64,000 bases of DNA from Planctomycetia bacterium (GTDB taxonomy: Bacteria; Planctomycetota; Planctomycetia; Pirellulales; Thermoguttaceae). Below the pieces are notes generated by a model. That model searched no databases, was not told the origin of the DNA, and worked only from the letters and a program-made list of their open reading frames with translations. The position numbers and the translations under genes are program-made. The stretch covers positions 1-64,000 of the forward strand of contig JAUNMR010000007.1 in NCBI GenBank assembly GCA_030537455.1, read 5' to 3'. This document shows positions 20,516-35,161 of the stretch, piece by piece (position 1 is the first letter of the stretch; the number at the start of each line of letters is the position of its first letter).

Positions 20516-23500
20516 ATGCGTACCGTCCGACTAATCTTGGCGTCAATACTTTTCGCGTACTGCGCGCTAGCGTACGCGCAGGCGCTCCACGCGCAGAGCT
20601 GGAAGGACTACGCAGAGCAACTCAAAGCGCAATCTCGCCAGGAGCGCGCGCCGCGGGAAAATCACGACGCCGTGGAGCGTCAAGATCAGACGTACTCAGC
20701 GCAGGAGGAGTACGAACCGACGCTGCGCGACGTACGCTCGCCGGTCTCACAGGGGGGAATTTTGGACTTTTCCAGCGCTCTGGGAGACGACGGCGCGGAA
20801 CTTTACGGCGATGCAGAAAATGAGCCGACGACCTTCGAAGACCAAGGCGTCTTGCGCGCGCCGTCTCCGCCGTCCTATCGCAACATACCGGAAATCCAGG
20901 AGAGCGCCAAGCTCAACGACGTTTGCTTTATAGACGCCAATACCGGCTGGGTCGTCGGGGATCGCGGCGTTATTCTGCACACGTTCGACGGCGGCGCGAC
21001 CTGGACGCAACAGGACAGCGGCGTCGACGTGAATCTCTTTGCGGTGAGTTTCTTTGACCAGAACTACGGTCTGGCGGTCGGCGGACGCGTAATGCCGTAC
21101 CTACGCGTCGGTCAGGGCGTGATTTTACGCACAGTCGACGGGGGCGCGACCTGGACGCTCATTGAGACCTCGGCGCTACCGATCCTTCGGGACGTTAAGA
21201 TCATTGACGAGACAGTCGTCTGGGCGGCGGGCGACTCGTCGAACCTTTATTCCACGGGACTATTTCTCAGTTACGACACTGGCATAACCTGGACGCCAGT
21301 GGAGGGCAATCGTCGGCGCGGCTGGCGCGCGGTTCTTTACGATCCAATTGAGCGCCTGGGCGTGGGCATAACGACGCAGGGTCAGGGTCAATACGTTGAG
21401 GGGGGCGCGATCACGGGCGTCGACCTTCAGCTCGGAGAGAACCAGCTGTACGACGTCGCCTATGACGCCAATTCGAATCAGACCTGGCTTGTGGGCGATT
21501 CGGGGCTGATCCTGTGCTCGAGCAACTTTGGCAAGAGTTGGACGCCGGCGCCGAACGCGTTGCCGAACGACGCCGCGCGCTACTTCGATCTCTACTCGGT
21601 CGTTGCGAAAGACGGGCTACTCGCGGTCGTGGGAGCGCCAAGTTCAAAGATATTTCTGTCAGACGACCAGGGCGTCACCTGGCGCGTGGCGAATTCTGGA
21701 ATTTCAACGCCGCTACGAAAGTTGTGCTTTATCGACCGCTCGCACGGCTGGGCGGTCGGGGATTTAGGCGTGATTCTCGCCACACAAGACGGCGGTCAGA
21801 CCTGGACAACGCAACGTCAACATGTTTCGCGCGCGGCTATTCTCGCGCTCTTTGCACGCGCTAACGAGGCGCCATTAGAGGCGTTTGCTCAACTGGCAGG
21901 CGACCAAGGTTTTATAACGCAAGTGGCGCTACTCACGCGAGAAATCACCGAGTCGGGACGCTCGGAAGAGATACCGTTACTGCTGAGAATGAACGAGGCG
22001 CTCGTACAGGTCGGCGCCCAGGGCGTGACGCAATTTCCACAATTTCCACTGGCGCCGGAACGTTACCAGGAATCGTTAGACCAGGTCGTAAAACGATTTA
22101 ACGACGCGAACGACTCACAGGGATTGTATCGTCTGCGTGAGAGAATGGTGCGACTGATACGCACATGGCGACCGAGTATTGTGGTCGCCTCCAGCGACTT
22201 AACCGAAGGCTCGGAAGCGGAACACGAACTTAACGTCGACCTGAATAAATCGAGCGACCTCACGGCGTTACTGGGCGCGCTGGCGCAGGACGCACAGAGG
22301 GTGGAACAGACGCCAAGAGCGCCGCTACAAGCGCTACTTCTGCGTGAAATCTTAGGCGCGATCAATGACGCCGCCGACCCAACGACCTTTCCCGAACACA
22401 TGGGCGTCTGTGGACTAGAGCCATGGACGACCTCGCGCGCACACGTGGCGTTGCGCGGCAAGTCCCAGGGCGATCTCACGCTTGACGCCGCATACTACTG
22501 TCCCTCGCTCGGACGCGCCGCAGGCGAAATCGCAAGGGACGCGCGCGCGATACTGGATCAGAACCCCGAAACGCTCAAGAGCGTGAGTTTCCAACGCGTC
22601 TACGCCTCCGGCGCTGACAATAACGCGGCAAATGAACGTGCCCAAAGCTCCTTTGCCGGCGCTGACCTGCCCTACGGCGGGGACGCAAGGCGCAGAGCTA
22701 ACGCTTTGCCCGAGCAAGTCGCGCAGACATTGGTTGAACGCGCGGGCAGACGGCGGCAGCTACTGGGAATGGTAGAGACCCTAGCGCGACAAAGCGCTAA
22801 TAACGCGAGAAATTCGCAGTTCTTACTCTCCGGTCTGGAGCAGAGCCTTACTGGTCTGGACGCGGAGCTGGCGGTGGAATACCTCAGCGCGTTGGGCGCG
22901 CGACTGGCAAGGGACGGCAATTGGCTCGCGGCGGAGCAGGTATGGCAGTACGCGCCAAGGGAATACCCCGACATACCGCAGAGTTATGAGATCTTTAGAG
23001 CGCTCATGCAGTACTACTGCAGTACGGAGTTAGAGAACCTCGCGCTCCAGCAGGGTCAAACGACCTTGGGGCAGGATCGCAACACACGACTGCGCAACGC
23101 GTTAAAGCTCGCGGAGGTCGTGAGGGACTTTGCGCCTGACGCCTATATGTCGCCGGAGTTACGCTTTCCGCTCGCAAGCGCGCAAATCGCGTTGGGGGAC
23201 GCTCCAACCGGGTTGAATTACTATTTGAACCGTTCCAATGCCAATCGGGACGACGTCTGGGCGGTACGCGCCGCCACGGAATACTGGTTGCGCGCGCCCA
23301 AGAGCGATATACTCGCGCGGGATCAGAAGTACCCGCCAACGCAGACGGCAAACTGCCGACGTATCGCCGTAAAGCCTTATCTCGACGGAAATTTAGATCC
23401 GGAACACTGGGCGGAGGCGCCGACCTTCTACCTCGCGACCCCATTTGACGCGCCAATGCCTGAAAGGGCAATGAACGAACAAGAGAGCGACGCGCAAAAG

Positions 23501-24058
23501 TGGCGTCAGGCGAACCGCGCGCTGGCTCAATCTCATGGCGCGGCTGTTGGCTTTGCTTACGACCAAGAATACCTCTACATCGCGGCGAACTGTCCTAAGG
23601 CGTCGGGCGCGTTCTATCAGCCGAATGAGCGTACGCAACGCACGACGATCGCGGAGCAACTCAACGATTCCACGACCTTGGAGCAGGAGAAACAACCGCC
23701 GCGACCGCGCGACGTGACATTGGAGAGCGTCGACCGTTTGGAAATTGCGCTCGACCTTAACGGCGACTACCAGACCGCCTATCGTTTCACCGTGGACTAT
23801 CGCGGAGTTCTGTGCGACGAGCTGTGGAATGATAAAACGTGGAATCCGGAAATTTTCGTCGCGCAACGAGAGGACATGCAGAAATGGACGCTAGAAATTG
23901 CGATTAAACTCACTGACCTCACGAGTAAGACGCCGCAATCGGGCGACACATGGCGCGTGGCGCTCAAACGTACGGCGCCCGGCGCGGGGGAAGAGACTTG
24001 GAATATCGAAAATTCCGATCGTGGAGAGGACGCCTTTGGGATTTTGACGTTCGAGTAG
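20516..24058 (+). CDS. Large secreted YCF48/BNR beta-propeller protein with CBM9-like C-terminus
   Basis: A 1180-aa exported protein with a signal peptide (MRTVRLILASILFAYCALAYA). After a polar linker come repeated propeller blades at about residues 130-440, marked by GWVVGDRGVILHTFDGGATWT, GVILRTVDGGATWT, FLSYDTGITWTPV and GWAVGDLGVILATQDGGQTWT. These are Asp-box/YCF48-type repeats. A helical, Ala/Arg/Glu-rich middle follows (about 440-940). The last 220 residues (LDGNLDPEHWAEAPTFYL ... DRLEIALDLNGDY ... WTLEIAIKLTDL) resemble the CBM9-like/DOMON-type domain. YCF48 relatives assist assembly of membrane complexes, but here the context suggests a surface or periplasmic protein of unknown role. 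It converges with the caspase-like cluster. Confidence 0.8.
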   Translation: MRTVRLILASILFAYCALAYAQALHAQSWKDYAEQLKAQSRQERAPRENHDAVERQDQTYSAQEEYEPTLRDVRSPVSQGGILDFSSALGDDGAELYGDAENEPTTFEDQGVLRAPSPPSYRNIPEIQESAKLNDVCFIDANTGWVVGDRGVILHTFDGGATWTQQDSGVDVNLFAVSFFDQNYGLAVGGRVMPYLRVGQGVILRTVDGGATWTLIETSALPILRDVKIIDETVVWAAGDSSNLYSTGLFLSYDTGITWTPVEGNRRRGWRAVLYDPIERLGVGITTQGQGQYVEGGAITGVDLQLGENQLYDVAYDANSNQTWLVGDSGLILCSSNFGKSWTPAPNALPNDAARYFDLYSVVAKDGLLAVVGAPSSKIFLSDDQGVTWRVANSGISTPLRKLCFIDRSHGWAVGDLGVILATQDGGQTWTTQRQHVSRAAILALFARANEAPLEAFAQLAGDQGFITQVALLTREITESGRSEEIPLLLRMNEALVQVGAQGVTQFPQFPLAPERYQESLDQVVKRFNDANDSQGLYRLRERMVRLIRTWRPSIVVASSDLTEGSEAEHELNVDLNKSSDLTALLGALAQDAQRVEQTPRAPLQALLLREILGAINDAADPTTFPEHMGVCGLEPWTTSRAHVALRGKSQGDLTLDAAYYCPSLGRAAGEIARDARAILDQNPETLKSVSFQRVYASGADNNAANERAQSSFAGADLPYGGDARRRANALPEQVAQTLVERAGRRRQLLGMVETLARQSANNARNSQFLLSGLEQSLTGLDAELAVEYLSALGARLARDGNWLAAEQVWQYAPREYPDIPQSYEIFRALMQYYCSTELENLALQQGQTTLGQDRNTRLRNALKLAEVVRDFAPDAYMSPELRFPLASAQIALGDAPTGLNYYLNRSNANRDDVWAVRAATEYWLRAPKSDILARDQKYPPTQTANCRRIAVKPYLDGNLDPEHWAEAPTFYLATPFDAPMPERAMNEQESDAQKWRQANRALAQSHGAAVGFAYDQEYLYIAANCPKASGAFYQPNERTQRTTIAEQLNDSTTLEQEKQPPRPRDVTLESVDRLEIALDLNGDYQTAYRFTVDYRGVLCDELWNDKTWNPEIFVAQREDMQKWTLEIAIKLTDLTSKTPQSGDTWRVALKRTAPGAGEETWNIENSDRGEDAFGILTFE

Positions 24059-24157: not shown

Positions 24158-25162
24158 CTAGCGTCCGACCAGAACCGCCTCGGGCTTTTGAGGACTTTTG
24201 AAATCTTTGGTCTTCTCCACGACGTCTTGCGAGGCGCGCGCAATAATCGCGAACCAGTCGACGTCATCGAAATTATCCAATGCGTTTACTTCCTCAAGGA
24301 GCTCTTGTAGGAAAAGATCATACCCTTGATTTTGGTTGACAATTTCCTGATGGGAACAGGCAAAAAGCGTAACGAAAGACGTTTTGGGGTCGACGACCAC
24401 CGGTCTTTTGAGTGCATTAACCTGCTCCGCCGGCACAGACGTCACTTCCACGCGATCCGCTAGCCATAAGAGGAAAATGCGTTGTGCTTTGGAAGCGCTC
24501 AGGAGCGCTTGGATTTCACTGAGCGCAATCCAATTTTTGACCTCCATGAGGTTAGACTTCTTCGCCAAAAAGCAAGGTTCGCCCTGAACGCTCGCCCCTT
24601 CGCCGCTAACGACAACCAGGAGCGTATCGCGAGAACCGGCGGAATTTGCCATACTTGCAACGGTCGCGAGGATATTATCGCGAGTCGGCAGAAGATAGAA
24701 CGGGCAGGGGTCATTATCCACAAGTTGCGCGATATTACGACTCTCAACGCCCTTGTCCTGTAGCGCTTTCGCCACAGCTTTGACGTCGTTCTCAGGGAGC
24801 AAGCGCGGCGGTAGCATGGGCGAGGTAAAGAGCGCGTCGTAACCAACGAGTACGGCGTAAATCTTACCAGGCGTCGGCTTAAGAGGCGTCGTGTTAATCG
24901 CGCCATTCGCGGGTCGTGTGCCCGGGACAGACGGGACGTTCGAGGCGGTTTGACGTTCCAGAGCGCTAACGCCACGTCGGAGCCGATCCTCAGGGGTATC
25001 GGTCGTCGGCTTGAGTTCGGGCTGCTGTGGCGCCGCTTCTTGCGCAATCTGTTCCGGGGTAAGTTGCGTCGGAGAATCAGCCTGAACTACCGCACGCAGA
25101 CCGCCAAGCAGAAGAATGCAAAAGGTCAGAGCAAACGTTAGGAAACCTTGAGTTCGCGTCAT
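24158..25162 (-). CDS. Secreted caspase-like (peptidase C14) homologue lacking the catalytic dyad
   Basis: A 334-aa exported protein with signal peptide MTRTQGFLTFALTFCILLLGG and a Gln/Pro-rich linker to about residue 98. A caspase/metacaspase p20-like fold follows: IYAVLVGYDALF, ENDVKAVAKALQDKGVES, TRDNILATVASMANSAGSRD. The usual SGHG is SGEG (Glu188 for His). The strand that normally ends in DACHSG reads LLWLADRVEV, with Asp236 at the Cys position. The later SFVTLFACSHQEIV ... GYDLFLQELLEEV segment fits the end of the fold. Family assignment is clear from the layout; loss of protease activity is inferred. A strong AGGAGG sits 5 nt before the ATG. The caspase-like gene 25175-26524 is 12 bp upstream, so both are probably on one mRNA. 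Confidence 0.78.
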   Translation of the reverse strand: MTRTQGFLTFALTFCILLLGGLRAVVQADSPTQLTPEQIAQEAAPQQPELKPTTDTPEDRLRRGVSALERQTASNVPSVPGTRPANGAINTTPLKPTPGKIYAVLVGYDALFTSPMLPPRLLPENDVKAVAKALQDKGVESRNIAQLVDNDPCPFYLLPTRDNILATVASMANSAGSRDTLLVVVSGEGASVQGEPCFLAKKSNLMEVKNWIALSEIQALLSASKAQRIFLLWLADRVEVTSVPAEQVNALKRPVVVDPKTSFVTLFACSHQEIVNQNQGYDLFLQELLEEVNALDNFDDVDWFAIIARASQDVVEKTKDFKSPQKPEAVLVGR

Positions 25163-25174
25163 AAGTTCCTCCTG

Positions 25175-26524
25175 TTAGCGTTGCGGCGGATTACAGAGGA
25201 TGAAATCATTGAGATTATCAATCGTCACCGGCGTTTGGGCGACGTCCTCGTCAAGGTTGTCCTTCAACGCGTCGACGGTCGATTGTACCGTCAGGCAAGC
25301 CAGTTCGGTAAAATCTTTAAAAGAGACCTGGGTATTTTCGTCCATTGCGATAGCAAGCGAGAGGCAATATGCGAAAGCGACAGGATTAATCTCATAGCAC
25401 GTATATTCCCCGTCCTCTTCGAGAATCGTACCAGCGTGAGATGGTTCCGACTCCGCCGAGGAGAAGATCGCGCAGAGCTTCGCATTGCGCGAGACGTCTT
25501 TCGCATTATGACTATCGAGCAGATCGGCGACGTTATGCGACGTTATGGCAGAGGCGGTCGAAGAGCCGCGATTGCCGGCGGCGCGCAAAAGCAGAGCAAG
25601 ACCGTTGTCGGAACTGGCGACGTCGTTTCGTGCGCCGGTACGACCGTCGTTAGCGCGCGGCGTAACCTTCCGACTCGGCACGCTATTGAGCAGGTAGTCG
25701 TGCTGGTTACGATCGCCGCGAGCGGCGCGCGCGTCGGCTGGGGCGCATTCGACAAACTCATTGCGAATTTGCGACATTGACAGCGTTTCGCCCAAACCTT
25801 TCATATCGGGTCGTCGAGCGCTATAGGTTCCCTGCGAGGTCGTCAGACCGCCGGAGAAACACGCTTCGATCAAGACAAAGACGCGTCGACCTTCTAGCCC
25901 GTCAATGAGTCGTCCGAAGTCGTCGTCGGTCAAAGCGGAGTTACGATACGACTCATAGGGGTCGGCCTCATACCAGGGACCGGTCTCATAGAGAACGAGG
26001 AATTCGTCTTTACCGTCCGATTCATCGCCGTCGTCGTCGGGTAGCCAGTTACCGCCGTGACCATTCCAGTAGATAAAGATCTCGTCGCCGGGCTCGGTCT
26101 TCTCTTTGAGGAGCGCGAAAGTCTTAATGACGTTCTCTTTCGTCAAACGCTTACCTGCCATGGAGATCCAGCCGTCAAACATACCGCTTCCGCGCGACAA
26201 ACTCTCGACGGTTTCGTAACTCTCCCACATGAAATCGTAGAGATCGTCCTTTTCGAAGGTATCGGTCACGTAGTTGTAATGATGCGTGCCGACGAAATAA
26301 GCGGCGATTCGCTTATGACCATCGTCGCCATAACTACGCGCGGGCGTGTCCGAGCTGACGCGTTGCGATAAGGCGTCGGCGTTGGCGTTCAAACCGTCTC
26401 GGCGAATAAATGGTCTGAGTTCATTAGGAATCTGTTGACCTTGAACCATGGAGTCCGACGCGACAAGCGCAGAGACTGCCGTGAACACGACGATCAGCGA
26501 CAGGAATAATCGTTCATGTTTCAT
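25175..26524 (-). CDS. Secreted caspase-like cysteine protease (peptidase C14 type)
   Basis: A 449-aa protein with an N-terminal signal segment (MKHERLFLSLIVVFTAVSALVA). The caspase-like fold shows KRIAAYFVGTHHYNYV, then PGDEIFIYWNGHGGNW with catalytic His156, an acidic DDDGDESDGKDE loop, and RRVFVLIEACFSGG with catalytic Cys222. A long, partly low-complexity C-terminal half (about residues 230-449) includes a segment resembling the closing strands (NAKLCAIFSSAESEPSH). An exported active protease is inferred, with specificity unknown. It overlaps no gene and lies 12 bp upstream of its degenerate homologue, which suggests an enzyme/pseudoenzyme pair. Confidence 0.8.
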   Translation of the reverse strand: MKHERLFLSLIVVFTAVSALVASDSMVQGQQIPNELRPFIRRDGLNANADALSQRVSSDTPARSYGDDGHKRIAAYFVGTHHYNYVTDTFEKDDLYDFMWESYETVESLSRGSGMFDGWISMAGKRLTKENVIKTFALLKEKTEPGDEIFIYWNGHGGNWLPDDDGDESDGKDEFLVLYETGPWYEADPYESYRNSALTDDDFGRLIDGLEGRRVFVLIEACFSGGLTTSQGTYSARRPDMKGLGETLSMSQIRNEFVECAPADARAARGDRNQHDYLLNSVPSRKVTPRANDGRTGARNDVASSDNGLALLLRAAGNRGSSTASAITSHNVADLLDSHNAKDVSRNAKLCAIFSSAESEPSHAGTILEEDGEYTCYEINPVAFAYCLSLAIAMDENTQVSFKDFTELACLTVQSTVDALKDNLDEDVAQTPVTIDNLNDFILCNPPQR

Positions 26525-26654
26525 CTGAATAGCCTAATCTGTTTAACCTTATCTTGTTAGTTAGCGCCAAGGATAGAAATACCATAGCGTCAATCTTAAT
26601 GGCGCCAAAATCTCCCATACGCCCAGGGCTTTTCCCCTGGTTAAAACATAGCGT

Positions 26655-27665
26655 TTATTTCTTCGCGGCGGCGCGAGTCTCGATGGATAATTCAACTTTC
26701 GCCAAGTATTCCGAATCGTTCAGCTCGCTCGCCAGATCGATCGGCTTACTCATGAGCCAGAAGCTAATCTTTTTAATACCGAAGTTCTTCGTGGCGATAC
26801 GCCATCGGAAGGCGTCCTCTTTGGAAGGAATCAAAAGACTTTGCCCCGCCTCAATTCGATATTCCTCGCAATTCTTATTCGGCAGTAGCACGGCGCCGTT
26901 TTCATCGTCCGTTTCTACGAGAACGTAGAGATAGCCGGTACGTTGGGACGTCACGCGCGCGAACAGATACTCACCGTCTATGTAAAGACTGCCGGAATGC
27001 TCCAGTACGACAGTGAGCGGCTCCTGAGATTCGGCGTTGGAGTCGGTGGACGGTCCGGTCGGGTATTTCTTCTCGCGAATTTCAAAGTCCTTAATCGCAA
27101 CCTGAGCGGCGTCGGCGTTGAGCTGATTAACAATATCGGTCAAACCTTTCCTAGCGACGTCTGGCGCAAGAAGGGCGACGACGTCGCCAATAGCGTTTTG
27201 AAACGCCTCAACCGGTTCTTTTGTCACAAAAGCATAAACCTTTTCGCGACCACAAGGAGCGGTGACGGTCAGATTAAAATTCATCTTAGGCGCGGGATAG
27301 GTCAGAAGTTTACCAGCCTCAATGGGCTCCTCGCCGGGTAAGAAGCGATTAGGCAGAAGCAAAATGATCTGACCGGTCGACGTTTCATCCAGAAGATAGA
27401 GATACCCGGGCTGCGACGATTTCACGATGATCGTCATTCGAGAATCGATCGTATAGACTCTATCAATACGATCAAGTTGCAGGCTCAGCGTGGAATTATC
27501 CGCGCTTTTCGCCGCACAAGTTCCAATTGTGCTCAGACACGAGGCGATAACGTCTTGATCTCCCGACGGATCCGAAGGCTGTGCGTCCTGTGCAAAGACG
27601 CCGCTGGATACGACCAAAAGTAATAACACGCCAAAGAAACAATAACGTTGTATTAGAGACTTCAT
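26655..27665 (-). CDS. Secreted protein with two DUF4384 domains
   Basis: A 336-aa protein. A signal peptide (MKSLIQRYCFFGVLLLLVVSSGVFA) is followed by two similar beta-rich domains. The first (about 55-155) reads LDRIDRVYTIDSRMTIIVKSSQPGYLYLLDE ... IILLLPNRF ... EKVYAFVTKEP. The second (about 220-335) has GSLYIDGEYLFARVTSQRTGYLYVLVE ... AVLLPNKNCE. These match the DUF4384 pattern, found next to caspase-like and kinase genes in bacteria. The function of DUF4384 is unknown. AAGGAAG precedes the ATG. A terminator lies between it and the next gene upstream, so it may have its own promoter. Confidence 0.8.
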   Translation of the reverse strand: MKSLIQRYCFFGVLLLLVVSSGVFAQDAQPSDPSGDQDVIASCLSTIGTCAAKSADNSTLSLQLDRIDRVYTIDSRMTIIVKSSQPGYLYLLDETSTGQIILLLPNRFLPGEEPIEAGKLLTYPAPKMNFNLTVTAPCGREKVYAFVTKEPVEAFQNAIGDVVALLAPDVARKGLTDIVNQLNADAAQVAIKDFEIREKKYPTGPSTDSNAESQEPLTVVLEHSGSLYIDGEYLFARVTSQRTGYLYVLVETDDENGAVLLPNKNCEEYRIEAGQSLLIPSKEDAFRWRIATKNFGIKKISFWLMSKPIDLASELNDSEYLAKVELSIETRAAAKK

Positions 27666-27689
27666 TGTACTTCCTTATTCACTTTATTG

Positions 27690-27725
27690 CAAAAGAGAAG
27701 ACGCAGGGTCGCCTGCATCTTCTCT
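27690..27725 (-). terminator. Terminator of the DUF4384-caspase gene
   Basis: A 14-bp stem with one mismatch (27694-27707 with 27712-27725), a GTCG loop, and TTTTGC on the minus strand after the stem. It lies 50 bp past the stop codon at 27776. Confidence 0.75.
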
Positions 27726-27775
27726 GGCACAAACATTAGACGTCACGATAAACGCCAGGCGCGACAAATCGCTCG

Positions 27776-29308
27776 TTACTTCTTAATCAAGAGGACGGGG
27801 GCGCCGCTGATCAGATCTTGAACGAGAATCTTTTGACTTCGCCCCTTTCCTTCGCTTTTGAAGTAGCCGTCAACGCCCTTCTGCACTTCGCGTTGAAGAT
27901 CCGCTTGGGTAATACGATCGTTCTTCTTGTCGTTCAAGACCTGGAAGAGGTAGTAAGTCGCAACGCTACCTTTGGAACGATCGGAATTCAGGAAGGACAA
28001 CTGGTCAACTGCGCAGGAGCACAGAACAAAGGAATCGGATTGACTAATCGATTTAAAATCGGCGTCAGCCTTTCCGAAGAAGTTGAAGGCGAATTCAAAC
28101 TTGACTTCGTCGCTAGTGTTACTAGAAAGACTTTTGGAGTCGCCGAGTCCCTTAGCGTTCTCCGCCATACCAGCTGCGTGACACGCGTCGATAAAGACAA
28201 AGATCTGACGACCTTGAAGCTCCTTAACCCAATTGCCGAATTCTGTATCGTCAATCATCGTATTGACGGAATCATTGAGGTTAGACTCTGTCGGCAGAAG
28301 GTAGCAGCTATTGTTGTTAAGTTTAAGGTCTGCGCCGACAGCGCCGTGGCCGGTCCAAAAGATAAAGATAGTATCGCCCGGTTTCGTCAAGCTCTTCAAC
28401 GAGGCAATGCCTTCTTTGACGTCCTTCTTCGTGGGATTGAGTTTCGTATAGACGTCCCCAGACGCAACGCCTAAACGATCAACGGCAATTTTTGCAAAAC
28501 CTTCAAGATCGACGCGGCAACCGGGAAGATTATGGATACGATCGTCTTTATAATCAGAAGTAGCAAAACCGTAGGCGTAACGCTTAGGTTCAGCGTCCGT
28601 ACGCTCTCTTTTTCCGACAATTTGATAGTCAATATATTCGCGGAGAATTTCGTTGGCGACGTCTTGTGCCTCCTCGGTGACGCCGTCTTCTTTCTCAACA
28701 ACCGCGACGAATTTAGAGCCTGCTTTTCTGATCTCTTCAAGCATTTGATCAAAGGCGTGACCTGTCAATACGGTATAGTTGTCGTCTCCCAAGCTCTTTA
28801 CCGCCTTTTCCAAATCCAGAGGTTCAGAAGTGACAAACGCCACGATATGCTCTGTGGTAGCCCTGCTATTTGGAGGGAGAACGACTCTAAACTCGAAACG
28901 GCTTTCCTTAGAAGGATACGTTACCGCCTTACCCGCCTCAATACGAAGCGCATTATCGGTGAACTTGTTCGGAAGCAAGAGGATCGGATCATATTCGTCG
29001 CTTTCCGGCAGACAAATCAAATACAAGTATCCGCTCTTAGAGGATTCCACCGTAATCGTGAGTTTATCCTCCTCCTCATAGACGCGATCGGAACGATCAA
29101 GTTGAATGCGCACCTGTTCGGTTGCATGGTCGGCTCCAGGCGTCGCCTCCCTTACTGCGATGAGGCGTGGTGTAACTTCCATCTTTTCTTTGTTCGGAAC
29201 CGGTTTAAGCTCCTCAGCAAGGCCGACGGAGACGCCCAGAACCATGAGAGCGAGAGTCATCGCGCTCGTAAGCAAAGTACGTTTAGTTTTCATTTTCATC
29301 TTTCCCAT
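27776..29308 (-). CDS. Secreted DUF4384-caspase fusion protease
   Basis: A 510-aa exported protein. The signal peptide MKTKRTLLTSAMTLALMVLG precedes a DUF4384 domain (about 66-165: IQLDRSDRVYEEEDKLTITV, GYLYLICL, ILLLPNKF, HIVAFVTSEP). After a linker comes a caspase-like domain (about 242-500) with RYAYGFATSDYKDD, PGDTIFIFWTGHGAVG (His321) and RQIFVFIDACHAAGM (Cys376), both residues intact. The C-terminus contains FVLCSCAVDQLSFLNSD and a GSVATYYLFQVL helix typical of the fold's end. GGGAAAG favours an internal ATG at 29293 over the outer one given here; the choice only moves five residues. It follows 29331-30989 by 22 bp and is surely in that operon. Confidence 0.82.
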   Translation of the reverse strand: MGKMKMKTKRTLLTSAMTLALMVLGVSVGLAEELKPVPNKEKMEVTPRLIAVREATPGADHATEQVRIQLDRSDRVYEEEDKLTITVESSKSGYLYLICLPESDEYDPILLLPNKFTDNALRIEAGKAVTYPSKESRFEFRVVLPPNSRATTEHIVAFVTSEPLDLEKAVKSLGDDNYTVLTGHAFDQMLEEIRKAGSKFVAVVEKEDGVTEEAQDVANEILREYIDYQIVGKRERTDAEPKRYAYGFATSDYKDDRIHNLPGCRVDLEGFAKIAVDRLGVASGDVYTKLNPTKKDVKEGIASLKSLTKPGDTIFIFWTGHGAVGADLKLNNNSCYLLPTESNLNDSVNTMIDDTEFGNWVKELQGRQIFVFIDACHAAGMAENAKGLGDSKSLSSNTSDEVKFEFAFNFFGKADADFKSISQSDSFVLCSCAVDQLSFLNSDRSKGSVATYYLFQVLNDKKNDRITQADLQREVQKGVDGYFKSEGKGRSQKILVQDLISGAPVLLIKK

Positions 29309-29330
29309 TTAGTGCAGTACGGATCCAATA

Positions 29331-30989
29331 TTATTCGAGACGGATTCCTCCCTTGGCTTCGGAATCGTCGTCGCCGGGATTACGAATATCAACAAGGGTA
29401 AAGGTTTTCGCAACCAGACCGACGCGTTGCTTGATTCTTTCGGACAGGGAGTCGGTCTTAGCTCCAGCGTCTTTACCGTCTTGTTCCAGAATATCTTTGG
29501 CGACCTGTTCTTCGGAAGGATTTACGCGAATCGCAAGGTCGGAAAGCGAAAGATCAAGCACAGGCTTTTCAACGGCGTCGTCTTTCTCTTCAACTTCTTG
29601 GGAGTTATTGAAGGCGGTAACGCCAGAGATGGCGATGGGATTCTCGGTGACAAACGCCACGAGTTTGACCAGACCGGTTGGTTCGCAGGCGCGCCACACA
29701 TAGGTCGAGTTTTCCACCGGGAATTCATAGCCCTTGTCGCCGCTGACGAATCCAGAGTCGCCGGGACGAGGATAAAGCGCGCAAACCTTGCCGTCGGGTT
29801 CAATTGCGAATACGTAGAGGTAACCGTCATGATAGGAACGGCACACGAACTTCAGCTCATTGCCAACTTCCAAAGAATGACCGCCGATCACGTTAATGGA
29901 CAATTGGAAATCGGAATGGGTCTCCGAAAGGAACTGTACCAGTTGCGGATATTCTAGACAGAACATATCGTCAATCGTTTCCTCGCTAGAATCAACGTCG
30001 TCGTTGGGTTGATCGTTGTTGGACGGCTGATCGTCAGCGACCGGTTGGACGTCATCGGGCTGATCGTCAGTAGACGGTTCGTCGTTGGTATCGACCTCGT
30101 CGACTTCGGGTTCCGGTGGATTTGTCCCGGGATTGCGATTGAGGATTTCGCAAACCTTCGCGTAGCTCAGTTCGGGGTTATCGGACTGAATCACGTAGGG
30201 AACCCAGGCGAAGTCCGGATGACGCTTTTGCGCGACGCCGACCCAGCGACCAGAACCGACAACGAAGTCGGAGCCATTCATCTGAATCGTGAAGGGCAAT
30301 TGGCGATAGACCAGGGTAAGACCGACGTAATCGGGCGCGACGCCGTCGTCAGCCGCCCAGATTTCCAGTATGCCTCTGTAGTTGTTACCGCCGGCGGGTT
30401 GATACTGCAGGCGATAGGCGTAGACCGGGTAATTCCACACTTGCGGACCGGGTTCCAGGTCGAGTACTACCGAGGTATGCTGGTCGCCGACGTAGTAACG
30501 CAGCACGGAGATCAGCAATTCCGGCGACATATCGTTGTAAGCGGCGACGTCGGAGAGGTCGTTACAACGCGTTCCATAGGAGTTGGCGGAATCGCCGGAG
30601 TGCGCTACGGCCAGCCAACCTTTTTGATCGCCGATACCGAGATTGAAATTACGACCGTTGACCGGAATAACAGCGCGTGGTTCGCTATCCATGACGCTTG
30701 AGGCGGCCCAGCCGTGGCATAGGCCTTCCCAACCGCCGAGGGTTTCCGCGGGGGGCCAAGCGGCCTTTTCCGCGTCGGCTGAATGAGCGCCGGTGATGGC
30801 GTCGTATTTCGCCAAAGGTTGAAGAATCTGTTGGGTCTTAATGGGCCACCAGTATCCGGACCAAACGTTTTTGGTCACGTTGCCTTGTTCTTTGTGAACG
30901 CGGTTATTCTGCGCCCAAGACGTTTGCACGCTCGCGCCAAGACATACGACGCACAGCGATAAGCATAACGCATAGAATTTCATTTTCAT
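29331..30989 (-). CDS. Secreted transglutaminase-elicitor-like domain fused to DUF4384
   Basis: A 552-aa exported protein. The signal peptide MKMKFYALCLSLCVVCLGASVQ is followed by an N-terminal domain (about 30-290) with WEGLCHGWAASS (Cys91) and WVGVAQKRHPDFAWVPYV. This pattern recalls the transglutaminase elicitor family (GP42 of Phytophthora and bacterial relatives); the match is from memory and should be checked. An acidic, Asp/Gln/Pro-rich low-complexity linker spans about 295-345. A DUF4384-like domain follows (about 355-455: FKLSINV-like, LKFVCRSYHDGYLYVFAIEPDGKV, KLVAFVTENP), then a polar tail. AGGGGGAT sits 5 nt before the ATG. It lies 12 bp after 31002-32264 and 22 bp before the DUF4384-caspase gene, in one operon. 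Confidence 0.68.
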   Translation of the reverse strand: MKMKFYALCLSLCVVCLGASVQTSWAQNNRVHKEQGNVTKNVWSGYWWPIKTQQILQPLAKYDAITGAHSADAEKAAWPPAETLGGWEGLCHGWAASSVMDSEPRAVIPVNGRNFNLGIGDQKGWLAVAHSGDSANSYGTRCNDLSDVAAYNDMSPELLISVLRYYVGDQHTSVVLDLEPGPQVWNYPVYAYRLQYQPAGGNNYRGILEIWAADDGVAPDYVGLTLVYRQLPFTIQMNGSDFVVGSGRWVGVAQKRHPDFAWVPYVIQSDNPELSYAKVCEILNRNPGTNPPEPEVDEVDTNDEPSTDDQPDDVQPVADDQPSNNDQPNDDVDSSEETIDDMFCLEYPQLVQFLSETHSDFQLSINVIGGHSLEVGNELKFVCRSYHDGYLYVFAIEPDGKVCALYPRPGDSGFVSGDKGYEFPVENSTYVWRACEPTGLVKLVAFVTENPIAISGVTAFNNSQEVEEKDDAVEKPVLDLSLSDLAIRVNPSEEQVAKDILEQDGKDAGAKTDSLSERIKQRVGLVAKTFTLVDIRNPGDDDSEAKGGIRLE

Positions 30990-31001
30990 TATATCCCCCT
31001 G

Positions 31002-32264
31002 TTACTCTTGAAGGTTGGACTCTAACAGAACCGCTTGGGTCGTACCGTTGTCAGAGTAGACAGGCCAAGGCGAGTTCGGGATCCAGACCTGTTTGACGTC
31101 AGCGTTAGCGCTATCGGTCAGATGGACTTCCACGGCGTCTTGCAGAGCGTTGGGCTCGCCGATCGCTTTGGAGTCGACTTCCTGAGCGCCGAGCAGTTGC
31201 GCCATTTCAGGAGAGAGCGGACGAACCGATTCTTTAACGGTATAGAACATCCCGCCGCCGACGACGCCGACTTGACCGAGCGCTTTCGCGTCGTCTTGAC
31301 CGGCGTACTTAGAGTAAGAGGCGGAGTAGTCGAAGGTCAGATCGTCAGATTCTCCAAGCGCTTTGGAATCGCCGTCCTCTTGCTGAGCGGTAAAGATCGG
31401 CATATCCAGCGGCAGGAGCGGAATGGAGCCCAGAACGCCGGCGGCCTTGCCGTCTTTAGCGGAATAGAATTCCGTATGTTCGACCCAGGAACCGTTCTTC
31501 CAGGTGTATTCGGTGGTGCGCACAAGCGCGCCGGTCTCAACGTCAACCCAGATATAGACGACCGGCTGACCCGGGGCGACAATATCGCGTTCCACCTTCA
31601 CTTGATAAGCGGGGCGTTTATTGATCGACGCGAGCTTAACGACAGTGAAGCGCCACTTCAGAACCGAGCGTTTCTGCGTCTTGGTCGAATCCTGACCCTG
31701 CTGGCTCGTCGCCTGAATCACCCAGGAATCCCCCACATTCCAGTTAGGTCCATACTTGCTCTTCGGCTTCGCAGGAACTTGTTGCTGCTGCTGAGCCTGT
31801 TGTTCCTGTTGTTGCTGGGTCTGTTGCTGTTGCTGGGTCTGAGTCTGTTCCGGCTGTTGCTGAGTCGGCTTTTGACCTTGCTGAGTCTGAGATTGTTGCT
31901 GTTGCTGAGCAGGCTTTTGACCTTGCTGAGCTTGAGGTTGCTGCTGCTGTTGAGCAGGCTTTTGACCTTGCTGAGCCTGAGGTTGCGGCTTCGCAGGTTC
32001 AGACTTCTTTGGCTCGTCCTTTTTCGGGGTATCCTGCTTCTGAGCTTGAGTCTGCGTCTTAGAGGCTTGCGCCTTGATCTGCTCCACAGTTTTTACGCCG
32101 GGCGTTTGGGGGGCCGCAGAGTCTCCCTTGGCGGTCTTTCCTGCGGTAACATAAAGCTTAGCGACGTCAGTTTCGCCAGGCTTGACGTCCTCCGCCAACG
32201 CTAGCGAGCATGAGAGCGTCGCAAAGAGCATTAGCGCGAGGCTATTTTTTAACAGTCTATTCAT
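31002..32264 (-). CDS. Secreted Gln-rich repeat protein of unknown function
   Basis: A 420-aa exported protein. A signal peptide (MNRLLKNSLALMLFATLSCSLALA) leads to a long low-complexity region at about residues 55-170 with imperfect tandem repeats of the type QAQQGQKPAQQQQQ. The C-terminal domain (about 175-420) begins WNVGDSWVIQAT and carries WRFTVVKLASINKRPAYQVKVERDIV, VYIWVDVETGALVRTTEYTW and several KALGE/KAIGE motifs. The family is not recognised. The repeats could act as a flexible surface spacer. It starts a tight operon with the two genes downstream and lies 103 bp after the small lipoprotein gene. Confidence 0.72.
   Translation of the reverse strand: MNRLLKNSLALMLFATLSCSLALAEDVKPGETDVAKLYVTAGKTAKGDSAAPQTPGVKTVEQIKAQASKTQTQAQKQDTPKKDEPKKSEPAKPQPQAQQGQKPAQQQQQPQAQQGQKPAQQQQQSQTQQGQKPTQQQPEQTQTQQQQQTQQQQEQQAQQQQQVPAKPKSKYGPNWNVGDSWVIQATSQQGQDSTKTQKRSVLKWRFTVVKLASINKRPAYQVKVERDIVAPGQPVVYIWVDVETGALVRTTEYTWKNGSWVEHTEFYSAKDGKAAGVLGSIPLLPLDMPIFTAQQEDGDSKALGESDDLTFDYSASYSKYAGQDDAKALGQVGVVGGGMFYTVKESVRPLSPEMAQLLGAQEVDSKAIGEPNALQDAVEVHLTDSANADVKQVWIPNSPWPVYSDNGTTQAVLLESNLQE
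31779..32046 (-). repeat. Gln-codon tandem repeats within 31002-32264
   Basis: Imperfect repeats of CAG/CAA-rich units of about 45-50 bp encode QAQQGQKPAQQQQQ-type segments. Unit number is likely to vary between strains by slippage or recombination. Confidence 0.65.
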
Positions 32265-32367
32265 CTTGCAACCCTTTTATCCTAAGATAGGTTGTGGCAA
32301 TAATGTGGTTCACTTGCGGAAACCGAAACGCAATAACGAAGGTCACGGCGCGTGAGCGTCATGAGTA

Positions 32368-32715
32368 CTAAAAGGTTTTAACGTCAGAGTTGTCGACCTT
32401 GTCGTCTGGCTTAATGACGTCGTCCTGTTTCTGCGTGGCGGGAGGATCGACTTTACCGACGTTTTGCTTTTGGATTTGGGTCTTGTCGTCGTCTTGATTG
32501 ACCGCCGGCGCGGCAGGTTTATCGCTCTTCTTCTTCGAATCCTGACCTTGATCGGCGATCGTGGCGTCCGGATTGCCCGGAACGTCGTTAGCGTTAGCAT
32601 TAACGCTAATGTTGTCGTCAGAAGAGTTCGAACCAAACTTGCAATTGCCCCCGTCGCAGCCGATGAATGCGGTCAGAGATAATGCCATAGCGAAAACCAA
32701 ACAAGTACGTTTCAT
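32368..32715 (-). CDS. Small Asp/Lys/Gln-rich lipoprotein
   Basis: A 115-aa protein. The signal sequence MKRTCLVFAMALSLTAFIGC ends in a lipobox (FIGC, Cys20). The mature part is polar and low in complexity (SNSSDDNISVNANANDVPG, then Asp/Lys/Gln-rich runs to the C-terminus) and looks unstructured. No family recognised. AAGGAG 7 nt before the ATG at 32715 fixes this start; the frame is open 18 codons further. It is the first gene of the cluster running leftwards to 24158, preceded by a candidate promoter. Confidence 0.72.
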   Translation of the reverse strand: MKRTCLVFAMALSLTAFIGCDGGNCKFGSNSSDDNISVNANANDVPGNPDATIADQGQDSKKKSDKPAAPAVNQDDDKTQIQKQNVGKVDPPATQKQDDVIKPDDKVDNSDVKTF

Positions 32716-33530: not shown

Positions 33531-35024
33531 TTATTTCGCGAGTAGTTCGATCTCCCCGAGAAGGTAGCGTTTCTGACCGTCAGTTGGCGCGTCGAGGGGC
33601 AGTTCGTAAATAGGAGAGCCGTCGCGACTGCCAACGCTTAGATAGAGCTTATACTTTCCCGGCAGCGTCGTGGGCGCGACGTGACCGATACGAAAGCGCG
33701 CGGTTCGCTCCACACGCGGCGCCGCCTCAGGCGCGCCGACTGGAAGCTCGTGCACGTCGAACGTTTCGTCCACTAGAACCGAGACGATACCGTCCTGTTC
33801 GTCTTTGAGCGTGAGCGTCACAAAGCCGCCGTCGTAGCAGGGCGCGACGCCGCGGTTCTGCAGACGCCACTGGACGTCGAAGAATTCGTCGATTTTAACC
33901 GCGCGAGGATAGCTCACGCGCTCCGGCATGAGACGATACCCGAGTCGACGATTGATCTGACGCGCTGTCTCCTGCTCTTCCTCCCACTCCTGCTGAGGGA
34001 ACCAGTGGATCGACATATAGGAGGCGTGGTAATCTTCGACCGATTTTTTGAGCAGTTCCGAATTCCAAGCGCCGCGCTCTTGCGACGCTTTGAAGTGTTC
34101 ATGTTCCAGAATGACGGGTAGCGTGGGCCAGAACTTTTGCGCCATATCGTCATGGAACCAATTTTTCGGCGCGGGCTGAACGAGGATACTATCGTCGCGC
34201 AGTGAGACGCCCTGTGAGAAAGCGTAATCAGTTTCGGGGAAATCGAAACCTGGGCGTTCCGGACCGGCGACGTCGTCGCTAATGCACAGGAGCGTGTCGG
34301 GAAAATACTTTTTATGCAGGTCGATATGTTTCTTAACGACCGCCAAGGTTCGTTCCGGGGTCATTCTGGAATAAGAGGCGCCGCGATCGATCCCGAGGGT
34401 GGAGTGTCCCTCGCCCCACATGCCGTAGGTACCCACGTCAATAAAGGCGACGTTCGGATTACCGTTGTAACGCCGTCCGGCGGCGGCAAGGAAGTTTTCT
34501 AACTTTTCGAGGTAGACGGGGTCGTCAAATTCGGGGTCGACCGAAGTACCGTCGTCGCCCTCATGACTTCCCCAGGTGTAGCGCACATATTTAGCGCCGG
34601 CGTCAAAGACCCACTTCGGCGTGGCGTATTCCATCCAGTTTTCAGACGTGGTAAAACGAAAGGCAACCTTTTTGCCCTTGCTGATCCAACGCTGCGCCGG
34701 CGTGTCGACAATCGCCCAGTTAAAAACGCCCTCCTCCGGCTCAAGGTAAGCCCAGGGCAGACGAAGATAGACCGTGGAACAGCCCTCAAACCATTCCAGA
34801 GAATCGCTCGGCGCCAAACGACTGCCGTAATTCGAAGGAATATTCGAATAGAAATGCATCGTCCAGCCCATCTTAGGATTAATAAGCGCCTGACCGTTGT
34901 CTTGAAATTCTATAACGACCTGATCGTCGCCGACTTGTTGCGCAACGCCGCGCGCGTAAGGAAACATCGCGCAAATCAAGAGCGCCGCGAGAATCAGAGA
35001 TTTACTCAGCAAAGCTTTAGACAT
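33531..35024 (-). CDS. Secreted DUF4832-type, glycosidase-like protein
   Basis: A 497-aa exported protein with signal peptide MSKALLSKSLILAALLICAMFPYARG. The N-terminal two-thirds looks like a TIM-barrel: INPKMGWTMHFYSN, STVYLRLPWAYLEPEEGVFNW, KKVAFRFTTSENW, NVAFIDVGTYGMWGEGHST. The C-terminal third is a beta-sandwich (VQWRLQNRGVAPCYDGGFVTLTLKD). This layout fits the DUF4874/DUF4832 proteins, related to family-42-like glycosidases. Polysaccharide or glycan degradation is inferred; no substrate can be named. The ATG at 35024 gives a compact signal peptide; in-frame alternatives lie at 35066 (ATG) and 35075 (TTG) and none has a clear ribosome binding site. A second glycosidase-like gene follows on the same strand. 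Confidence 0.7.
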   Translation of the reverse strand: MSKALLSKSLILAALLICAMFPYARGVAQQVGDDQVVIEFQDNGQALINPKMGWTMHFYSNIPSNYGSRLAPSDSLEWFEGCSTVYLRLPWAYLEPEEGVFNWAIVDTPAQRWISKGKKVAFRFTTSENWMEYATPKWVFDAGAKYVRYTWGSHEGDDGTSVDPEFDDPVYLEKLENFLAAAGRRYNGNPNVAFIDVGTYGMWGEGHSTLGIDRGASYSRMTPERTLAVVKKHIDLHKKYFPDTLLCISDDVAGPERPGFDFPETDYAFSQGVSLRDDSILVQPAPKNWFHDDMAQKFWPTLPVILEHEHFKASQERGAWNSELLKKSVEDYHASYMSIHWFPQQEWEEEQETARQINRRLGYRLMPERVSYPRAVKIDEFFDVQWRLQNRGVAPCYDGGFVTLTLKDEQDGIVSVLVDETFDVHELPVGAPEAAPRVERTARFRIGHVAPTTLPGKYKLYLSVGSRDGSPIYELPLDAPTDGQKRYLLGEIELLAK

Positions 35025-35161
35025 TGTTTTATTGTGAACCCTTTGACTACCCTGTGTCTTTGGCATTGTGACCAACTAACGTCGGAGAGTCGGTCGCGAG
35101 TAAGCGCAAAGGCAAACTCACGACCGACGTAATTACAAACGAGCGTTGCACAGCGCGCCGG

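Follow-up and report, generated by a model that had tools for sequence, protein, structure and literature searches.

Seven minus-strand open reading frames (ORFs) fill positions 24158-32715 of the DNA analysed here, the first 64,000 nt of contig JAUNMR010000007.1 from a Planctomycetia bacterium of the Thermoguttaceae (GenBank assembly GCA_030537455.1), which we call the window. From first to last on the coding strand they are p7, p6, p5, p4, p3, p2, and p1, separated by 103, 12, 22, 110, 130, and 12 nt. They encode a predicted transglutaminase (TGase; p5), three caspase-like proteins (p4, p2, and p1), a protein with two DUF4384 domains (p3), a LolA/RseB-like protein (p6), and a small lipoprotein (p7). 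A first-pass annotation, made from the letters alone, had described seven exported proteins, several of them encoded only 12-22 bp apart, with two apparently active caspase-like domains and a degenerate one, four DUF4384 domains in three proteins, and one transglutaminase-elicitor-like domain. This inventory was borne out, the short spacing applying to three of the six gaps, and the C14 and DUF4384 matches in Pfam were significant (except for p2, which had no Pfam match). A rule-based scan assigned a signal peptide to p1-p6 and a lipobox (FIG|C) to p7. Because 12 of 50 control ORFs also satisfy this rule, single calls are weak; by these sequence-based calls, export signals in seven of seven proteins are not due to chance. 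Scans for promoters and terminators in the cluster scored no better than shuffled sequence.

The enzymes and their DUF4384 domains

The p5 gene (29331-30989, minus strand, as for all features of the cluster) encodes an exported protein with a GP42-type transglutaminase domain (30129-30890) and a DUF4384 domain (29637-29867). The former matched Pfam TGase_elicitor (PF16683), passing the cut-off (E 2.1e-15), and our TGase profile, A3, matched only GP42 (3TW5) in the PDB (E 5.8e-21). The active site of GP42 is an unusual Cys-His pair, in which the His is displaced to a position beside the Cys (PMC10318531). In p5 the pair lies in the motif GLCHGW (residues 91-92, codons 30714-30719), and CH was present in all 21 aligned core loci; the crystallised 3TW5 chain has SH at this position, as expected of a Cys-to-Ser variant. 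D177 and N186 of p5, candidate partners of the His, were invariant in A3 and aligned with D and N of 3TW5. Judged from these matches, p5 is a homologue of the Phytophthora GP42 transglutaminase that keeps the Cys-His motif, and transamidation is its predicted activity.

The next gene, p4 (27776-29308), encodes an exported protein with a DUF4384 domain (28820-29080) and a caspase domain (27920-28561), the conserved core protease of the set. The caspase domain matched Peptidase_C14 (E 1.8e-18), and the profile of the p4 family, A4, matched the Metacaspase-4 structure (E 1.9e-25). H321 and C376 were invariant in 16 aligned proteins, and all 21 aligned core loci kept the His, the Cys, and the Asp two residues before the Cys (D374 in p4). 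Because of this acidic residue, and because subfamily C14B cuts after Arg or Lys (PMC12445089), a basic P1 specificity is expected for p4. The exported protein p2 (25175-26524) was recognized as caspase-like by the PADLOC caspase model (E 2e-5) and by our own profile, and its NGHGG and EACFSG segments aligned with the His and Cys positions of p4, so the dyad is intact. In p1 (24158-25162), also exported, Peptidase_C14 was matched as well (E 6.6e-7), and the dyad is absent: a Glu stands in the His column, the Cys-containing segment did not align, and by eye the Cys position would be an Asp. By this alignment, p1 is a caspase homologue but a pseudo-enzyme.

The whole genome gave 12 C14 matches. 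An export signal was also called in most of these proteins, so that exported caspases are the rule in this organism and no peculiarity of the cluster. Further C14 domains lie on contigs C24, C36, C66, C77, C78, C79, C80, and C83, most of them in exported proteins of 390-1113 aa. The first-pass statement that bacterial caspases are usually cytoplasmic was too strong, as many prokaryotic caspase homologues carry N-terminal helices or extracellular domains (PMC3501461). In a related locus, an exported caspase fused to a sulfatase-modifying-factor (FGE) domain adjoins the set (L056:5196-7184), with a second FGE protein upstream.

Besides p5 and p4, DUF4384 occurs twice in p3 (26655-27665), an exported protein with no other known domain. 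Pfam and our own profiles agreed on all four copies (Pfam E 1.5e-30 for the two in p3, 5e-11 in p4, and 1e-12 in p5), and the genome has just one further DUF4384, on another contig. The domain was modelled with a predicted local distance difference test (pLDDT) value of 94. Among the structures compared, the model had no strong match (best Foldseek E 0.35; Z at most 7.1, to complement C3/C5, RbmA, Wzt, and factor XIII barrels). Because these scores are weak, we describe it only as a predicted, generic Ig-like sandwich, which gives no footing to the first-pass designation of DUF4384 as a substrate-binding module.

Conservation of the neighbourhood and the partner protein p6

TGase relatives were searched for in 119 genomes of the same family and judged by domain content. 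A wider scan covered one genome per species and yielded 205 loci, of which the best 80 were analysed, so rarer arrangements may be missing. The related loci, numbered with the prefix L, are not phylogenetically independent, and some loci of the wider scan come from genomes that were also in the 119-genome search.

Within the family, TGase relatives were found in 20 of the 119 genomes, and the order p6, TGase-DUF4384, DUF4384-caspase recurred across the loci when mapped with our own profiles. The species scan gave 79 TGase loci among the best 80 of 205, and in 27 of them, all from species other than that of the window, the TGase carries DUF4384. A DUF4384-caspase gene lay directly downstream in 23 of the 27; it is split over two ORFs in L133, and L125, L136, and L147 reach the contig end. 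A DUF4384-caspase thus followed the TGase in all 24 loci with enough contig (L133 included). Across the 119 genomes, 18 had both the TGase and a full-length DUF4384-caspase, 2 had the TGase only (on broken contigs), 5 the caspase only, and 94 neither (odds ratio 169, p 6e-15). The distance matrices of p6, TGase, and caspase were correlated (r 0.64-0.71). Gene order was kept across genomes and the genes were not scattered; we conclude that the neighbourhood is real and conserved.

The 27 TGase-DUF4384 loci were nearly all from Planctomycetota. Single contigs were labelled Krumholzibacteriota (L143) and Zipacnadia (L146), which could reflect transfer or misbinning. In the remaining 52 TGase loci (Riflebacteria, Ozemobacteria, Desulfobacterota, and others) neither DUF4384 nor a caspase was found, and a p6 homologue was present in 23. 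Because 23 of these caspase-free loci have p6, p6-TGase looks like the more widespread, two-gene module, to which the caspase with DUF4384 was added almost only in planctomycetes. Examples of such modules without caspase and DUF4384 lie among L152-L198 (L194:9132-10903, L173:9153-10975), in Riflebacteria, Ozemobacteria, Methylomirabilota, and Desulfobacterota.

According to their titles, the metagenome-assembled genomes (MAGs) carrying the loci came from rumen, gut, marine, groundwater, and other environments; the set is conserved in gut and environmental planctomycetes. Several rumen and gut hosts would suit a scavenging or digestive set, in which the exported proteases break down protein from the surroundings and the TGase domain acts as a peptidase, as do most members of the papain-like superfamily that includes GP42 (PMC10318531). 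We consider this scarcely likely, since the loci also occur in marine, groundwater, and other environmental MAGs, and a kept gene order with a p6 partner and Gln/Lys-rich (QK) proteins would be unexpected for digestive enzymes.

The conserved partner p6 (31002-32264; 420 aa, exported) consists of a Gln/Lys tract (31761-32084, residues 61-168) followed by a predicted half-barrel domain of the LolA/RseB/DUF1849 type (31005-31769). The p6 model (pLDDT 80.6, predicted template-modelling score 0.81) matched DUF1849 (Foldseek E 4.6e-4), LolA (Z 8.6), and RseB (Z 7.8); vitellogenin lipid modules ranked higher, and a Z near 8 reflects a common arrangement. The p6 homologue in L050 matched LolA_like with E 6.2e-5, below the Pfam cut-off. 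NCBIfam matches of p6 to DNA polymerase III and others were attributed to low complexity. Of the 27 TGase-DUF4384 loci, 21 have a p6 homologue directly upstream of the TGase gene, and in two it is fused to it: a single exported protein comprises p6-like, TGase, and DUF4384 parts in L131:4765-7311 and L143:5-2326. A joint alignment of these fusions with the separate proteins was discarded, as the p6 tail was misaligned. Because p6 and TGase form a single protein in these two loci, p6 is probably a physical partner of the TGase, perhaps as its carrier, inhibitor, or substrate.

The resemblance of p6 to RseB as well as to LolA also fits envelope-stress signalling, in which an extracytoplasmic function (ECF) sigma factor and a zf-HC2-TPR anti-sigma factor control the exported set, p6 senses damage, the caspases are regulated proteases, and crosslinking is secondary. 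Proteins with zf-HC2-TPR or TPR, mostly with an adjacent sigma-70-like gene, lie upstream of the set in L050/L134, L058, L053/L132, L131, and L144. The sigma-70-like and TPR genes (with zf-HC2 in L134 and L144) are directly upstream of the set or of a neighbouring exported caspase gene in L134:6841-9018, L131:2652-4768, and L144:1686-3975, and sigma factors have been recorded in metacaspase operons of myxobacteria and others (PMC3501461). However, no sigma/anti-sigma gene adjoins the window cluster, and the same holds for most of the other loci whose upstream sequence is available; p6 is no better a match to RseB than to LolA-like and other half-barrels; and the QK tracts described below are left unexplained. 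We therefore regard envelope-stress signalling as the main role of the set as unlikely.

Gln/Lys-rich segments and a proposed crosslinking cassette

The 108 residues before the p6 domain are 46% Gln and 12% Lys, with no aromatic residue and no Arg. The tract has the highest Gln content among the window ORFs (Q50 0.66, compared with a median of 0.10 in the other ORFs), and by composition it is a predicted TGase substrate. It consists partly of 45-bp imperfect repeats and occurs once in its own genome. Its codons are mixed (CAA 23, CAG 27; longest identical run 3), which makes an origin by triplet slippage unlikely. In p6 of two congeneric species (L124, L125), QK tracts of other wording were found (AQKQDQ..., KQDQKQDV...), and Gln-rich tails of the TGase itself occur in two more species (L145, L147). 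Small secreted QK-repeat proteins occupy the p6 slot in L133 and L138, and one adjoins p6 in L142. Downstream of the caspase, L138 (12857-13144) and L133 (13086-13391) encode lipoproteins with a QK tail. In composition and lipobox these resemble p7 (32368-32715), a 115-aa lipoprotein with a low-complexity Lys/Gln tail and a predicted lipid-anchored crosslinking substrate.

A Gln-rich stretch was present in 23 of 111 genes near the TGase and in 3 of 135 farther away (p 1.7e-6), a count from which the tracts of L124 and L125 are absent because ORF selection concealed their p6. QK-rich ORFs numbered 11 of 246 in caspase-linked loci, compared with 1 of 593 in caspase-free TGase loci, and that one resembles a coiled coil. 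When a QK protein was used as the query against six whole genomes, matches fell in TGase loci only, and no Gln-rich ORF was found in DUF4384-caspase loci lacking a TGase. Since transglutaminases join Gln and Lys side chains, the loci are most simply read as encoding their own substrate, with the QK segments as probable crosslinking substrates. The first-pass annotation had overlooked these segments, the role of p6 as the core partner of the TGase, and the ECF sigma/anti-sigma pair of some related loci.

On balance and with modest confidence, we propose that the cluster works as an exported cassette for protein crosslinking, complete in itself: the TGase would weld Gln/Lys-repeat proteins encoded alongside it, and proteases of the metacaspase type would activate or trim. 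The mechanism is suggestive, and activity and location are predictions. p5 would join Gln to Lys side chains, both inside single QK segments and from one segment to another or to the lipid-anchored p7, and so produce an insoluble layer on the cell surface or outer membrane. p6 would hold or deliver the substrate, and DUF4384, the Ig-like module on both enzymes, would dock TGase and caspase to one partner. Activation of the TGase or trimming of the product could fall to p4 and p2, which carry, ahead of the catalytic Cys, the acidic residue usual in metacaspases specific for Arg or Lys, and p1 and p3 may be non-catalytic regulators or scaffolds. In the relatives that have them, the upstream sigma-70-like and TPR or zf-HC2-TPR genes would make the cassette inducible. 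The first-pass idea of an exported proteolytic/crosslinking system thus gained support from the neighbourhood, the catalytic residues, and the export signals, with the exception of its substrate-binding DUF4384.

Several observations weigh against such a cassette. The system is patchy, with the TGase in only 5 of 20 genomes of the genus, and the correlated distances of p6, TGase, and caspase partly reflect shared ancestry. The Gln/Lys content of p7 is only moderate. "Q-rich" is a composition threshold, above which 7 of the 27 loci have no tract even with L124 and L125 counted. In addition, one genus has lost the Cys-His motif of the TGase domain (L063, L064, L065, L078), and L063-L065 keep the DUF4384-caspase beside a TGase lacking both Cys and His. 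Since a caspase is here paired with a dead TGase, the pairing is not wholly dependent on crosslinking. No p6 was detected in L063-L065 with the p6 profile, which a diverged copy could escape. These three loci adjoin T2SSE or T2SSF and kinase-LRR genes, a setting that hints that the pairing can serve something besides crosslinking.

Prokaryotic caspase homologues are often linked to programmed death, and surface or fratricidal roles have been suggested for exported ones (PMC3501461). The exported caspases and TGase might accordingly attack neighbouring or sibling cells. However, neither an immunity gene nor a toxin-delivery module was found, and PADLOC matched only the generic caspase model, for which reason a defence-system reading of the cluster was rejected. 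Co-encoded substrates also favour self-assembly over killing, and we judge a cell-death or killing system to be very improbable.

Two further genes flank the cluster in the window. An 1180-aa exported protein with YCF48/BNR beta-propeller repeats (20516-24058, plus strand) is encoded convergently to it, and a DUF4832/GH42-like protein (33531-35075, minus strand) lies upstream and is probably unrelated.

Comparison with known systems

Phytophthora GP42 (3TW5, TGase_elicitor) resembles p5 by clear homology, the Cys-His motif, and export. Unlike p5, it lacks DUF4384, and we know of no caspase partner. GP42 relatives in marine Vibrio, not the present operon, were reportedly described by Reiss et al. 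in 2011. The half-barrel envelope proteins LolA, LolB, RseB, and DUF1849 are like p6 in predicted fold and export, with only about 5-11% identity in the structure matches; to our knowledge, none of these families has been linked to a transglutaminase. The p6-TGase pairs without caspases in other phyla suggest that the crosslinking module is more widespread, and new transglutaminases that come with substrate tags of their own might be found there.

Prokaryotic metacaspases or orthocaspases (C14B) share with p4 the His-Cys dyad and the acidic residue two before the Cys, and DUF4384 has already been recorded in caspase-homologue proteins (PMC3501461, PMC6426788). The literature searched, where absence is no proof, contained no report of such proteases paired with a transglutaminase, a LolA-like partner, and QK-rich proteins. 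With the proposed cassette, exported bacterial caspases gain a definite partner and a class of substrates that can be tested.

More tentatively, and as a possibility we would not yet favour, the cluster may be what clotting or the cornified envelope is in animals, a bacterial version in which an extracellular TGase, controlling caspase-family proteases, and Gln/Lys-repeat substrates yield a lipoprotein-anchored crosslinked coat of planctomycetes. We know of no other case of a structural role for bacterial caspases. The cluster offers a genetic handle on the planctomycete protein wall, an old idea of a resistant wall that was dropped once peptidoglycan was found (PMC4432640); wall and peptidoglycan would both be possible if some lineages crosslink surface proteins.

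Tgl-YabG-GerQ/SafA of Bacillus subtilis is like the proposed cassette in that a TGase crosslinks dedicated surface-layer proteins. YabG, which is functionally tied to Tgl, is an Arg-specific His-Cys protease whose placement in clan CD, to which the caspases belong, has been proposed, and in the spore coat the substrates are assembled first and welded afterwards (PMC6490927, PMC12445089). The comparison is one of function: Tgl and YabG are sporulation proteins of the spore coat, whereas the window enzymes belong to the GP42 type (TGase) and the C14 family (caspases), carry signal peptides, and are clustered with their presumed substrates. The thrombin-factor XIII-fibrin system is an animal one, with a serine protease and a TGase of another family, and protease activation in the cassette is hypothetical. 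The two would nevertheless share a logic, since in the animal system a protease activates both TGase and substrate outside the cell, giving rise to a covalent protein network (PMC6490927).

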